Positions 56,425 through 64,000 of a stretch of DNA of 64,000 nucleotides are shown piece by piece. The stretch is from assembly GCF_018446385.1 (NCBI RefSeq), contig NW_024589868.1, positions 1-64,000 on the forward strand. Direction: 5' to 3'. Under the pieces are notes generated by a model. It did not search any database and was not told the origin of the DNA. It saw only the letters and a list, made by a program, of their open reading frames with translations. The translations under genes and the position numbers were made by a program. Origin of the DNA: Zingiber officinale. Taxonomy: Eukaryota > Streptophyta > Magnoliopsida > Zingiberales > Zingiberaceae. How positions within the stretch are numbered: the first letter of the stretch is position 1; each line of letters opens with the position of its first letter.

Positions 56425-57171
56425 CGTATTATATTTTGAAATTTAGAAAGCGAACTGCCATTGCCAAAAAGAGACGCCAAAATTAGATCAAAGTACAACC
56501 AGAAAGCCCTATTCATGGACCTTCAATCAAGAAGAAAAGCTCAAGAAACCTTCCAAGTTTTCCCACATAAACGAAAGCAACCAAATCTTTAACACAAAAT
56601 ATCTCGTTTTTCCAGCACAAAGATGAGATCTTTGAAACAATCAGCAAACCTAAACGGAACGAAACCAAAGAGGAACAAAAACGCTACCTAGATCAGAAGA
56701 ATACGGCAGATAGGGAATCGGGGCGGAGATCCGATCTCCTCGTGGCAGTCAATTAAAGCCGCGAACGCCAAGGTCAGCGGCAACTTCAACGAAGAATCCG
56801 AAACCCTACTCGATTCGCTCCACCAAATCGCTCTGTAACTGTTGAAAGTCAAAATAACACATCTTATAATATCGATCGATGATATTGATTGATTGGTACA
56901 CACTGGTCGGTGAGAAAATGAGAAAGAGGGTATCATGTGGTAGGGATTCTCTGGTCCCGAATCCCTAGATCAGTCCTCATCTTTTGCTCATTCATTAGTT
57001 GGATGGGTTAGATCCCACTTGTTTAACAGTGAAGTCCAGTCCACCCACCCCTCGTATCATGATGGCAAAAGTTGAATAACATGGAGGAAGTAAATCATGA
57101 ATGACTATAGTTTTTGGAATAATGACTAGTCATCATGGACGGCTACTAATCTTTTGAATAGTGACTAGCCC
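56425..57171. other. Upstream region of the methyltransferase gene
   Basis: It probably contains the 5' UTR and promoter of the minus-strand gene, possibly with a leader intron (56460-56690). No other gene is seen. It ends at the 9-bp target duplication of the Mutator-like element. Confidence 0.45.
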
Positions 57172-57180
57172 ATAAGGGAG

Positions 57181-58410
57181 GAGCGCAGATCCTCTGGACC
57201 CATTCTTCCCTGGTCCCTCCCTGGACCACGAAATCCATATAAATGGATGAATCATGTGTAGCTCATGTGCAGATCCCACGCAAAAACGCAAAAACGCTGA
57301 AATGCAGAAAGCGCAAAAACACAGACGTGACGGAGCCCTAACCTCACCTCTCGCGATCCGACACCTCCGCCGGCGGTGTGTTGCCATCCTCTCGCGCTCA
57401 GAAACGCTCCTCCTGTGATCTCCCTGAGCAAAACCTAGCCGGTGACACCTCTGCCAGCTACGACCCAATGCTCGCACCACGCAGACTTGCTCCTCCGAGC
57501 CAGTTCTCCTACTCCTCCTCCGCAGAAAACGCATCAGGCGACGACCCAATTCTCCTACTCCTCCACAGATCTGCCTCCTCCGAGCCCGAGCCCTGTCTCA
57601 AGATCCTCAACCTCTGCCGCCGTTAGGGCTAAATTGCGGTACTATTTCACCCTAATCTCATCCTCAGATTTGGTTGCCTATAGTTTCAGATTGCCATTCT
57701 AGCTTATTGTCTTCTTCTTCAAGGTTAATTAAAATGCAAATTTTGGTACTTCTGTCCCGTTAGCTACACGTTTAAATCTGCGTTTAAATCTGTTGAACTA
57801 TCAAGTATCGGTTGAATTGCTTGATGAATGTTGTCCATTTATGCTTGTTTGTAAACTCAAGTCACATGCAATTAGGTTATCAATTTTTGGGATTCTTCCA
57901 ATCTTTCTTTGGTTTGTACAACCTATAGTTTCAGAGTGAAGTTCTAGCTGCTTGTCTTTGATGTCATCTTATAGAAAAGAAATGCAAGGTTCTCTACCAC
58001 ATTTGATGTCTATTTCAGCTAAGAAGTTTTGGTCGTAAAACCTCACTGTAAAAGTTTACCTGATGCTCTTTTTTAGCTGAAATAGATTGATACCTCATAT
58101 CATCCAGCCTTATCTTAGTGGATGGAATCTCACTGTATCCACCGTCAAATATTAACTCCTTCCACTGTTTGGTCTTTATGCTTTTTTGATTAATTTCCTT
58201 TATAGGGAAAATTAATCATGTTAGATGCTGAAACATGTTAGATGTTTGTTTTGTCGCTGTTTTTTAGAAAAAAATTTAGTTAAAAATTGGTGTTTTTAGA
58301 TCCTTCTTTTGTCACTGTTTTTTAGTCCTAAAAAATAATTTTAAAAAAATTACTTTTTTTTTTACAGGATCAAAGTAATTATCATGGATGGTGAATCTAC
58401 GAGTTGTCCT
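57181..58410 (+). repeat. Left terminal inverted repeat of the Pack-MULE
   Basis: Runs from GAGCGCAGATCC to the GGATGGTGAATCTACGAG block. Most of its length aligns with the reverse complement of 59725-60969, including CTCACCTCTCGCGATCCGAC, GTGATCTCCCTGAGCAAAAC and TTAATTTCCTTTATAGGGAA. Open frames here (57133-57549 and 57378-57626) are also found mirrored in the right arm and are not convincing genes. Confidence 0.9.
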
Positions 58411-59410
58411 CGTTTGAGCATCCCCCTTTTGGCAGTTGAACTCTTACATAACTTTCTAAATTGTTGCATCCCTCTTTTGGCAATGGAGATGCGTTTACTT
58501 TTTGTTGGAAAAATATTGTTAGCTATATTTGATGATTCCTGATGTATCATGGTTTGATGATTTCTGATGTATCCTGGTTTGATGTATATATATATTGTTT
58601 GAAGAATGTAATGGACTATTCGGAGTAAGAAATATTGCACAAGAATTGGTAGTATAAGTTTTGTGTTTTCAGTATGTGCATAAATCTTCTATAGAAATTG
58701 GATATAATAGTTGTTCTTGTAGATTAAATGTTCTATGAGTGTAACGTAAAGATAGAAAAAAAATTCTTTATTTGACGAATGTTTCCTATTTTATTAATTC
58801 CATTGTTAGTTTTTTAAATACACTAACATAAATTTGCAAGAAATGACATGAAAGTGCAAGATACAAGTGAGAAAGTTTATCTTAATTGTGGCAAAACACT
58901 TACGTTTAAAAATTCCTTTATGGTTAGAGCACGTTAGGATGTATTCTATCAAATAATCTCTCTCAAGTGACAGCTCTAGAGGGTAAGGACAGGTTCAAAT
59001 GGAATAGCTTGGCTTGTAGCTCCTCTTGTTTAGTGTAGTTGTATGTGGGAAGGGTCGTTTCTGGAATGTTAAGATGATCCAATCTGAACACGAAATATCT
59101 CATCTTTATGGATTGTTGCAAATTAGACCCAGCATAGATTTTTAAGATGATCCAATCTGAACTGTAAAGGATTACAAATCTTGCGTCATGATAATTCTCT
59201 ATGCTCTATCTTGTCACCATTCAATCCTTTCCATCTTTATACAATGATGTTTTGTTTGATATTTTTTTTTACCGTGCATAGATTTTTAAGATGATATAGT
59301 TCAACATATTGCTCTACAATTGTCCAATAAAAGCTATTGAGAACCTTTGCTGAAAACAACTAAAATATATTATGTCAAGAAACAAACAAACAAACAACTC
59401 AAAAACATAC

Positions 59411-59530
59411 CTCAGTCATCTCAGGCATAATAGGCTTCCTACCCAACAATTCTGTTAAAATAGAACCGGCACTCCACAGGTAAATTCCCACACTGTAGTC
59501 TGTGGCTCCCAAGAGCAACTCTGGGACTCC
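59411..59530 (-). pseudogene. Captured exon of a CDK-like (CDKC/At1g54610-type) kinase
   Basis: Read on the minus strand, the 40 codons encode GVPELLLGATDYSVGIYLWS and then AGSILTELLGRKPIMPEMTE. This matches kinase subdomains VIII-IX of the plant CDKC-like family (typically PPELLLG.TDYGVG.DLWSAGCILAELL.GKPIMPGRTE). The fragment stops exactly at a GTATGT donor-like site where the parental exon is expected to end, so it was copied with its exon border. The conserved Asp of DLWSAG is Tyr here and the Cys of AGCI is Ser. With no catalytic loop or ATP site, it cannot be a working kinase. Confidence 0.88.
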
Positions 59531-59724
59531 AAGTTAACAAATGCATAACAAACCACTATAAAAAGTATAACAGAACTAGTTCACTTTGTATAACAAAACA
59601 AGTTACATCACTTAGAATTACATCAAAATGTCAAGTTACATTACAAAATAAGTTACATCAACCACATCCTCATCATCATAATCAGGTACATACAACTATC
59701 TTCATTTCCTTCAAAATTTAAACG

Positions 59725-60969
59725 ACGACAACTCGTAGATTCACCATCCATGATAATTACTTTGATCTTGAAAAAAACAATTTTTTTTAAAATTATTTTT
59801 TAGGACTAAAAAAACATTGACAAAAGAAGGATCTAAAAACACCAATTTTTAACTAAAATTTTCTCTAAAAAACAGCGACAAAACAAACATCTAACATTTT
59901 TCAGCATCTAACATGATTAATTTTCCCTATAAAGGAAATTAATCAAAAAAAGCATAAAGACCAAACAGTGGAAGGAGTTAATATTTGACGGTGGATACAG
60001 TGAGATTCCATCCACTAAGATAAGGTTGGATGATATGAGGTATCAATCTATTTCAGCTAAAAAAGAGCATCAGATAAACTTTTACAGTGAGGTTTTACGA
60101 CCAAAGCTTCTTAGCTGAAATAGACATCAAATGTGGTAGAGAAACTTGCATTTCTTTTCTATAAGATGACATCAAAGATGCTTAGACTTTCATCAAGCAA
60201 AGACAAGTAGCTAGAACTTCACTCTGAAACTATAGGTTGTACAAACCAAAGAAAGATGGGAAGAATCCCAAAAATTGATAACCCAATTGCATGTGACTTG
60301 AGTTTACAAACAAGCGTAAATGAACAACATTCATCAAGCAATTCAACCAATAGTTGATAGTTCAACAGATTTAAACGTATAGCTAATGGGGCAGAAGTAC
60401 CAAAATTTGCATTTTAGTTAACCTTGAAGAAGAAGACAATAAGCTAGAATGGCAATCTGAAACTATATGCAACCAAATCTGAGGATGAGATTAGGGTGAA
60501 ATAGTACCGTAATTTAGCCCTAACGGCGGCAGAGGTTGAGGATCTTGAGATAGGGCGAGGGCTCGGAGGAGGCAGATCTGCGGAGGAGGAGTAGGAGAAC
60601 TGGGTCGTTGCCTGATGCGTTTTCTGCGGAGGAGGAGTAGGAGAACTGGCTCGGAGGAGGCAGGTCTGCATGGTGCGAGCACTGGGTCGTAGCTGGCAGA
60701 GGTGTCGCCGACTAGGTTTTGCTCAGGGAGATCACAGGAGGAGCATTTCTGAGCGCGAGAGGATGACAACGCACCGCCGGCGGAGGTGTCGGATCGCGAG
60801 AGGTGAGGTTAGGGCTCCGTCACATCTGTGTTTCTACGCTTTTTGTATTTCAACGTTTTTGCGTTTCTACGTGGGATCTGCACGTGAGCTACACGTGATT
60901 CATCCATTTATATGGATTTCGTGGTCCAGGGAGGGACCAGGGAAGAACGGGTCCAGAGGATCTGCGCTC
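59725..60969 (-). repeat. Right terminal inverted repeat of the Pack-MULE
   Basis: Reverse-complement partner of 57181-58410. It ends GATCTGCGCTC directly against the 9-bp duplication. The outermost ~350 bp (60620-60969) are GC-rich and almost identical to the left arm. Confidence 0.9.
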
Positions 60970-60978
60970 ATAAGGGAG

Positions 60979-62302
60979 ACATTTACCTCAGCTTTGTCGA
61001 AATTCAAACCTCAAACTTCATGATAGCAACACCTCATGTGCTAGTCACTAGACTATCCCGAGAGGACAAGAAAGAGGGCATCATGATAAGAGAGGATGAG
61101 GAGATCAGAATAAGTAAGTATAATAGAAAAGAATAGAGATTGAAAAGAGAGAAAGTATGATAAAAGAGAAAATGTGATATAGAATAAGGAGAGAGAAAGT
61201 ACGATGAAAAAGAACAATCATAGAAAAAATGTGACGATAAAATGAGAAAATAAAAATATGATGAAAAGGAAGGAGAGAAAAAATGATATGTAAGAAAAAT
61301 TGAATAAATATATTAATATTATTATTATTATTTAGAACATAATTTTTATTCTCATTTCTATCCAAATCAAAAGTGAATGTTGATTTCAACCATCCAAAAT
61401 TTTTCAATTTTATTTTAAAATTTAAATATAAGATTTAGAAATGAATCATCCCAAACACTTAAATTAAACGCCTCTATCTGGACGCACGTGGGAATGGCAA
61501 GCGTGGGAAGCAAGCCAAACCAGAAATCTTTTGCGGGGTGCCACGTTTACTTAGGCCGACAGGAACCGTTTACGTGAACTTGAACGACTCCCACGCGTTG
61601 TCGCCCTCCTTCCTCGAAGGCGATTCATCTCCTGCACGTAATTTAGAAGGAAAAACAAAAGGAATGAGTTTCTTGGAGGGAAAGAAAGGTAAATTCAATT
61701 TGCTTATGCATTTGAATAAAAATTTTCCAGCGAATAGGAAAACGTCAAGTAATAGATAGACTTTTGAACGACACCAAATGCAATTTGCTTTTGTCTTTTC
61801 TTCGAGTAAATTTCCAAGGAGTTAGAAAATTTGTTTGACTATGAGGGGAAAATTCATGCGCAAACTAACAAAATGACTTTTAAATAAATTGTATTGAGTC
61901 TAATCTAGACACGATTAATCATTAATAAAGGTGCTTATTGGCGCCCAAAATTTAACCAGAGAAGTTGAAGCACCAAATTGTCTGAGAGGTGGAGGTAAAC
62001 AAAAGGGAGAGAAGACCTTGCTTCATCGCCCGTAAAGGTTTTCTCTATCACTTGGATATATCAAACACTTGATCTACAATTGAATGCACGGAGCAAAGCA
62101 ACAAAAATAAAATTTTAGACTTAGACTACCAATGAAATGATGAAGAATAGGAAGTGTTGGATTCACTCGAGACTGGATCTAGTGAACTCAAATGCCAAGA
62201 AACAAGCTGCATTGGCTGGGACAGTGCGAGCCATGGCGGGCCCAAAGCCCTCTGCAGAGGCCTTTAATACTAATGCGGTGATGATGAGGAGCTCTATCCT
62301 AT
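60979..62302. other. Intergenic stretch, no gene recognised
   Basis: About 61060-61300 is a purine-rich low-complexity run (GAGAAAGTATGATAAAAGAG-like). A 73-codon plus-strand frame (61538-61759) has no recognised family. The rest is AT-rich. Confidence 0.45.
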
Positions 62303-63393
62303 TGTCACGATGAAAATCAAAGGAAGTCAAAGTCAAGACGATCAACGTGTATATGGCATCGATCGGTCGGGCGAAACATGCCCCGACCAAGGAGAAGGAT
62401 CTGATCCATCGTTGCCCTCGACACAGGGAGCATTCAAACACCTGACGCTCAAGGGAGAATGATGTGTAGAAATCAAGCTGAGCGGCTACCCCGCTCGGCC
62501 AGTCAGCGAGGTACGACATTGATAAAGTTCAACTTCGACCGAGCGACTTTCCCGCTCGGCCTAGCAGCAGACCCGACATCAGTCGAGCATGCGGACAGTG
62601 GATTTTCGGCCGAGCGGCTATCCCGCTCAGCCCAGCAACAAAGAATGCGAAGTGGACTTCAGGCCGAGTGACTTTCCCTCTCGGTCCGGCAACAACAACA
62701 CTTGGACAATGGACTTTCGGCCGAGCGGCTATCCCGCTCGGCCCAGCAACAGAGAATGCGACAGTGGACTTCCGGCCGAGCGGCTTTCCCTCTCGGTCCG
62801 ACAACAAACAACACTTGGACAATGGACTTCCGGCTCGCTCAGCCCGACAGCGGACAATATGCGTACGGCGGAACTTTGGCCGATCGCCTATTCCACTCGG
62901 CCAAGCAACAGACACAGCAAACTATCTTTTGATATCCTTTTGGGAGCTAGTGCCACTGACAAGCGACATGGTCTGACAGAGGATCGTACGGCAGAAGCTT
63001 CCACTGCCATTTCAGAGATATGCTCGGCCTGTTAAGGTATTATGTTAGGGACACTTTACCGATAAGTCTTTTCAGAAAAATTTTGAGATGCGTGTCCGCT
63101 TTGGGAAGCGTGCACACGCGCTTCAGGAGCTCTATATAAAGGGAGGTCCAAGAATCGGTGGAGGTATGCGTTACATGTGATAGCTTACTGTTGCACTATA
63201 GTTCTTGTTGCTCCGTTTATTGCTTCTTCTTCTTCGTCGGAGATTAACTTAGCGTCGGAGGGATATCGCCGGGGACCTCTTCCCTAATTCGGTACTGACG
63301 CTGCTTGTGTTGTAGGCGAGAGCGAAGTTCACAAGAAATTAGCAGGAGCGCCGCATCCCCAGTATCCATCTCATCGACTTTCAGACAGGATCA
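62303..63393 (+). mobile_element. Gypsy-like LTR relic (plus orientation), ~1.1 kb
   Basis: Starts TGTCACGATG and ends near CAGGATCA. It shares an ordered set of phrases with 23368-24108 (GAGATATGCTCGGCCTGTTAA, GAGCTCTATATAAAGGGAGG). A minisatellite at about 62540-62880 has about six units of roughly 57-60 bp with GGCCGAGCGGCTATCCCGCT-type cores. The U5 phrase TTAGCGTCGGAGGG is at about 63250. No internal retroelement sequence adjoins it, so it looks like a solo LTR. Only a 4-bp CTAT partial match exists between the flanks. Confidence 0.7.
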
Positions 63394-64000
63394 CTATAAA
63401 TTAATTATCTCAAAAGATTTTCAAACCGTTAGTAAAGAGGTCAGTTTAAGTATTCATATTCTTAATACTTCTCGGAAATACTTGACTACTATCCAAGTCC
63501 AAGACATCAATTGATGAGATAATATTATTATTATGAGTAGCATTTGATGATTGAACTTACTCTACTGCCATCAAACCATGCTCGAGTTGTTAAAAAGTAT
63601 TATAAACTATATATCTACATTCTTAATAAACATGATATCCAGAAGTGATCAAGCTTCTCATGTTTAATAGTCCAGCAATCATTTCAGTAGTAATATGCTT
63701 ACTTAGGTCCTAATTAAAAACCTTACCAAGCTTTAGATTGATAGCACTAAACCAGGTTAAATGAATTTAGCAAGGGATTTTTCAATGGTTAAATGAATAT
63801 CCATCTCATGTAATCCAACATGGCAAATCTCTACATGCCAAGAAAAAGATCCCTTTTCAACAAAGACGGGACTCATTGTTGAAAATAAGAATATATCGTC
63901 CTTTCCCAGCATAACATCAATATCTGAGACCAGAAGGAAAACTTTGGATCCCTTTTTTCCCGAGACGCTATAGAAAGGATACCATCGTCTTCAGTGATCG
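63394..64000. other. Right edge, unidentified
   Basis: No gene is recognised with confidence. A minus-strand open frame near 63770-63970 reads KKGSKVFLLVSDIDVMLGK and then FVEKGSFSWHVEICHVG. It has a coding look but matches no family I know. It may be a terminal exon of something beyond the window. Confidence 0.3.

Follow-up and report, generated by a model that had tools for sequence, protein, structure and literature searches.

A non-autonomous Mutator-like element in ginger whose long arms probably arose as an inverted duplication of the transposase-side end

Introduction

Among natural triggers of heritable silencing in transposons, the classic case is Mu killer (Muk) of maize. Deletion derivatives of MuDR arise by gap repair, and Tm1, a Mutator-related element, has reportedly been described as foldback. 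Muk carries both TIRs from the mudrA side together with an inverted partial mudrA, and the same account describes silencing by Muk as accompanied by short antisense transcripts, not by a hairpin (PMC3440606); in another account, the Muk hairpin is processed to 21-22-nt RNAs, which trigger silencing (PMC8224964). Microhomology-guided template switching has been described for Pack-TIRs in animals (PMC8277862), and in barley the TIRs of MULEs can exceed 300 bp with target-site duplications of 7-12 bp (PMC9168764). Searches of free-licence papers aimed at Muk or at inverted and foldback MULEs listed no second Muk-type inverted duplication outside maize.

Here we describe an element from ginger that probably derives, as a non-autonomous form, from a Mutator-like family in which the larger members have a transposase of the FAR1 type, a reading that covers its structural history and its mobility jointly and is drawn from sequence comparison. 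The window, which is the whole stretch of DNA that was analysed, comprises the initial 64 kb of the 146,086-bp contig C87, and the genome searched consists of 3,090,333,446 bases in 211 contigs. As both haplotypes are included in the assembly, alleles show up as separate places. For the haplotype-resolved assembly of cultivated ginger, 219 scaffolds are counted in its description (PMC8342452).

Results

The 3,789-bp element at 57181-60969 of the window has a 9-bp duplication, inverted arms and a fragment of a CDK-like kinase gene, arranged as follows (with the basis of each assignment in brackets).

57172-57180, no strand: left target-site duplication, ATAAGGGAG (compared with the right copy)
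57181-58417, plus strand: left arm, with TIR, 253-bp repeat, intron end and transposase exon start (arm alignment)
57181-57960, plus strand: left-arm TIR, positions 1-780 of the arm (comparison with relatives)
57961-58213, plus strand: 253-bp dispersed repeat at left-arm positions 781-1033 (also solitary on C11 and C12)
58384-58417, plus strand: transposase start codon and first ~11 codons, left copy (sequence reading)
58436-59069, plus strand: segment A, which in larger elements is located downstream of the transposase (comparison with larger elements)
59150-59525, minus strand: captured kinase stretch (93.4% identity to the C4 parent)
59409-59410, minus strand: kinase splice donor GT (same border in the C4 parent)
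59411-59525, minus strand: kinase exon part, ~115 bp, without the acceptor side; the remainder of the stretch is intron
59526-59698, plus strand: segment C, which in larger elements precedes the right end (comparison with larger elements)
59693-59698, no strand: CAACTA microhomology, from segment C to the inverted transposase-side end (join comparison)
59693-60969, minus strand: right arm, the transposase-side end copied in inverted orientation, start codon at 59751-59749 (arm alignment, traced to the join)
60970-60978, no strand: right target-site duplication, ATAAGGGAG (compared with the left copy)

The two copies of the target-site duplication agree at 9/9 bases, which bears out the exact duplication claimed in an earlier note on this DNA and is the ~9-bp length expected of a MULE. 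The inverted arms of ~1.2 kb that the note had also claimed are real, but they are more than TIRs, as they have transposase-end sequence inside. They are ~1.24-1.28 kb long. When they were aligned for identity and inner ends, 57181-58417 and 60969-59718 were identical at 1,173 of 1,221 ungapped positions (96.1%; 92.3% by BLAST over arm positions 1-1235, where gaps are counted), and the right arm, followed over 59693-60969, ends at the CAACTA join.

Other copies of the arms were sought in the genome, and the left arm gave at least 88 rows, a lower bound with 40 of 263 candidates scored. These include three places with the short, long-armed form: C4:17117157-17121064, C11:61848161-61852095 and C12:65419820-65423109. 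The outer part of one end of the C12 copy is lost; at the end kept by both, the C11 and C12 copies have the same duplication, ctgggggag, and we therefore read them as alleles. With the window, the short form is present at three insertion loci (window, C4 and C11/C12), each with a different target duplication.

Ends and interior are common to the window element and seven larger, transposase-bearing elements of 6.6-8.1 kb (L012, L015 and L018-L022). Open reading frames from 6/7 of these match FAR1 (PF03101), MULE (PF10551) or SWIM (PF04434), and a protein match at 97% identity links part of the seventh, L021, to the transposase of L020. Read unspliced, none of the seven has one open frame over the whole transposase, the longest stop-free runs being 194-440 residues. 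Related transposase frames of at least 700 residues, stop-free in the match and whatever their ends, number at least 25 among the 102 rows listed (96 of 3,913 candidates scored). Target duplications were compared among ten two-ended elements and are exact in six (window, L010, L013, L018, L019 and L020) and imperfect in L009 and L015 (8/9) and in L012 (7/9); none was found in L021. No clear left end was found for L022. L016 and L017 are the two ends of a single 22.6-kb span on C9, and L023-L026 share parts of the ends with the family.

The other allele of the site lies on C14, with a left flank that is 98% identical, and it too keeps the ATAAGGGAG duplication, here around a 657-bp remnant in which positions 1-552 of the left arm are joined to the final 95 bp of the right one. 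Since both alleles have the same duplication, the insertion is older than their split, and one allele has later lost its interior. When an empty allele was sought with the left flank, the sole near-identical place was C14, which carries the remnant; paralogues of the flank are found on C17/C18 (87%) and C1/C2 (71%).

Several further observations concern the site and its flanks. At the C14 deletion join (L014:2127-2139), sequence of the arms is repeated in a short filler, which resembles template-switch repair. The C14 allele also has, at L014:2861-3472 (opposite window 56992-57012), ~610 bp that are missing from the window: a palindromic MULE-like MITE of 173 bp (L014:2864-3036), for which the 9-bp duplication is TGGGATTCA, and another insert of ~430 bp. 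Beside the element, window 56911-57050 is a dispersed repeat of ~110-140 bp (33 other rows, 75-88% identity), and in the right flank 62273-63404 is a high-copy repeat found in dozens of places. The tested pieces of the putative HPM1-type neighbour had no Pfam or PDB match.

In the predicted fold of a whole-element RNA (-2,430 kcal/mol), 1,185 of the 1,602 pairs join one arm to the other; the prediction for one control stretch of the same length (44001 on) is -858 kcal/mol. Each of the seven larger elements contains 61-166 of the 1,217 left-arm 21-mers as exact matches and 38-125 from the right arm, the count for one 1,237-bp control stretch being 0, and exact 21-mers cover the start-codon region in 7/7. 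Read-through transcripts from either TIR would, if made, form a hairpin of more than 1 kb that spans the end of the family together with its 5' leader and start codon. Such a hairpin could yield silencing small RNAs in the manner of Mu killer. We think it unlikely that the ginger element silences its family in this way; the structural account does not depend on it. It is similarly doubtful that the derivative acts as a mobile Mu killer, encoding a hairpin against its own family and spreading the silencer by transposition; were this true, the element would be a self-limiting parasite of its family and might also affect the host CDK-like kinase, a piece of which is in the loop.

We lean instead towards a reading in which the structure arose as proposed below but the element is inert, either because there is no read-through or because it was methylated from the start, so that family and host kinase are unaffected. 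The collapse of the C14 allele to 657 bp and the small share of exact 21-mers per larger element for both arms point this way, although the coverage of the start-codon region in all seven larger elements and the predicted arm-to-arm pairing do not, and Muk shows that such a structure can act.

To understand why the arms are long, they can be set beside the outer inverted block of the relatives. Across the seven transposase-bearing elements this block measures 438-809 bp, and across the three two-ended short copies 1,235-1,286 bp. The window arms are composite. Positions 1 to ~800 are TIR, which in the larger elements on C10, C12 and C9 reaches ~810 in the right ends (81-85%, right arm) and ~660 in the left ends (78-82%); in the C6 and C11 larger elements the inner TIR segment is at both ends. 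This outer 0.8 kb is thus common to both family ends and in three larger elements reaches further into the right end than the left, and from its presence at both ends with unequal reach we infer that TIR conversion belongs to the history of the element; conversion between the TIRs of the family is likely. The 253-bp repeat is present in both arms of the short copies. It also occurs in solitary form on C11 and C12 (94%; window 57961-58213, L027:1749-2001 and L028:1863-2115), and no target duplication flanking it was recognised.

The innermost part of the arms is the most informative about their source. Left-arm positions 1128-1237, including the intron end and the start codon, match the left inner end of the larger elements only (85.6-92.8%), and the start-codon sequence, which is found at one end only in 7/7 transposase-bearing elements, is at both ends of the short copies. 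By these two landmarks both ends of the short form come from the transposase-side end, in inverted orientation as in Mu killer; the outer 0.8 kb fits either side. Segment C in 4/4 short copies reads CATACAACTA and then TCTTCATTT, which is the reverse complement of the transposase exon, and in 7/7 larger elements it continues as CATACAACTACAC. As the transposase exon's own reverse complement is CCCAACTATCTTC, CAACTA is shared at the join; the chance of at least six matching bases at a random join is ~0.0017. The join is identical in 4/4 short copies, two of them being alleles. Coding bases number ~59 in the right arm and ~34-40 in the left, and the additional ~19-25 bp of transposase exon kept on the right suggest either that the source of the copied end was an element in which the left join had yet to be cut, or that the left was cut later. 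The arms are long, then, because they hold more than TIRs, namely an inverted duplication of the transposase-side end.

A plausible series of events begins with gap repair, in which a broken right end would have paired via its TIR with the opposite end. Copying would then have run inward beyond the start codon, until microhomology at CAACTA switched it back. In one descendant the transposase body is now missing, and the right end is the transposase-side end in inverted copy. It is also conceivable that the short copies are a long-TIR subfamily whose arms grew by gene conversion between the ends and not by one template switch, as TIR length varies over 438-809 bp in the larger elements and those on C6 and C11 have the inner TIR segment at both ends. 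However, the extension stops inside transposase coding sequence, at a microhomology join that is the same in all four short copies, and the start-codon sequence is never at the right end (0/7 larger elements), so we regard growth by conversion as improbable.

The template switch would have been followed by movement: as the CAACTA join is found at two other loci with different target duplications, the rearranged element appears to have moved, and the family transposase would have moved it in trans. Arm pairs among the short copies are 92.9-97.1% identical over positions 1-1235, irrespective of side or locus; identity is highest for the C11/C12 alleles, and there is no consistent tendency for the two arms of an element to resemble each other more than they do the arms of other elements. 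These values fit an inverted duplication with transposition soon after, or conversion among copies.

On the minus strand, 59400-59530 reads 43 kinase residues, GVPELLLGATDYSVGIYLWSAGSILTELLGRKPIMPEMTEVCF. The 60 best of 210 PDB matches to this frame are CDK11B, GSK3, MAPK and CDK7 chains (E 3.4e-7 to 9.5e-6); a Pfam search with the short window piece gave no match. When a parental kinase was sought in the genome, a gene with the same exon border and a GT donor was found on C4 (L036). The stretch alike to the parent is 376 bp, about two-thirds of it intron, and corresponds to C4:124316777-124317152. Within the 3.4 kb that were read, the parent has an N-terminal kinase exon and a later exon running from HRD through APE to GRTE, with GTAGGG directly after; both exons are open and both match PF00069. 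Of the 40-codon kinase exon with its native splice donor that the earlier note described, the donor border thus stands, being shared with the C4 parent, while the exon itself is partial and lacks its acceptor side.

A search with a 661-bp parental query (C4:124316516-124317176), for which all 28 candidates were scored, returned one parent, 15 rows that represent 14 MULE loci and a further 12 rows in which other kinases align inside the exon. A near-identical allele of the parental kinase stretch was absent among these 28 candidates from a two-haplotype assembly. Seven of the 14 loci with the fragment are the 6.6-8.1-kb elements with FAR1/MULE-type transposase sequence; in these larger members it is placed after the transposase gene and before the right end. 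The fragment starts at the border L036:1458 in 10/10 non-short MULE copies, with other borders varying, and at L036:1501 in 4/4 short copies, which lack the first 43 bp. At seven sites the parent differs from every MULE copy or from every one except a single copy; one of these sites is the D-to-Y change in GIYLWS (13/14 copies). The window kinase sequence is 93.1% identical to the parent vs 89.4-92.6% to the non-short copies, so that the larger elements are best seen as cousins. An unrooted kinase tree places the parent beside the C12:1196 copy. Both observations count against a simple line of descent. At C12:119603202-119608417 (L049, L057) there is a copy whose longer captured kinase stretch is interrupted by ~1 kb and keeps the parental D codon (GIDLWS).

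These comparisons are best fitted by a single kinase capture before the short form arose, a second capture being less probable. A fragment with a common border in transposase-bearing relatives makes the capture look older than the window element, which was probably not the captor. As the earlier note had it, this is a Mutator-like element with a host-gene fragment, one whose source exists elsewhere (376 bp at 93.4%), and it has no transposase coding capacity, with ~11 and ~20 N-terminal codons at the ends; its proposal of a Pack-MULE capturing a kinase exon falls short in that the fragment is also in transposase-bearing relatives, whose common border sets the element apart from Pack-MULEs in the stricter sense, where the non-autonomous element itself acquired the fragment. 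A Pack-MULE with ordinary TIRs that captured the exon itself would explain an element without transposase but with a gene fragment, and the window copy is indeed nearer to the parent than to the non-short copies. We nevertheless consider self-capture very improbable: the fragment is at 14 loci, with the L036:1458 border in ten, the short copies are without its first 43 bp, transposase-bearing elements have the same interior on either side of it, and the shared border and shared changes speak against it.

Separately, a hairpin that targets the kinase is a weak proposition, since it is the loop that holds the kinase piece, of whose 21-mers 76/356 match the parental stretch read (4/99 in the exon part). 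An assembly inversion is very unlikely to account for the structure, which is the same at three insertion loci with different target duplications.

Discussion

The ginger element resembles several known kinds of Mutator derivative. Like Pack-MULEs, it has a 9-bp target-site duplication, long TIRs and a host gene fragment and lacks a transposase; it differs in that the fragment appears to be inherited from transposase-bearing elements and in that the arms hold transposase-gene sequence. A transposon carrying a gene fragment, therefore, need not be the captor. As in the deletion derivatives of MuDR, the transposase body is lost and the ends are intact, but here, in addition, an inverted copy of one end has taken the place of the other. 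Rearranged ends of repeated TIR sequence are likewise found in MULEs with multiple TIRs, although there the TIRs are mostly tandem (PMC3310237), whereas in ginger one whole end is repeated in inverted orientation.

The closest parallel is with Muk. As described (PMC3440606, PMC8224964), Muk is, like the ginger element, an internally deleted Mutator with both TIRs from the transposase-side end and an inverted duplication that has the transposase start in each arm. The two differ in extent: the arms of Muk go 1.3 kb into mudrA (PMC3440606), whereas those in ginger include ~11-20 transposase codons (~34-59 coding bases per arm), and little of the transposase gene lies within the inverted duplication. 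For Muk, a dominant locus that lies between amy4 and acm1, a silencing effect has been measured, whereas the ginger form is present at three insertion loci and its hairpin is a predicted one; unlike Muk, it belongs to a family with a FAR1-type transposase and has a kinase piece in the loop. If the same architecture has arisen independently, and is mobile, in ginger, this would suggest that Mutator repair repeatedly yields inverted duplications of an end as a by-product, and the ginger case makes it testable whether such derivatives, as Muk does in maize, shut down their own families.
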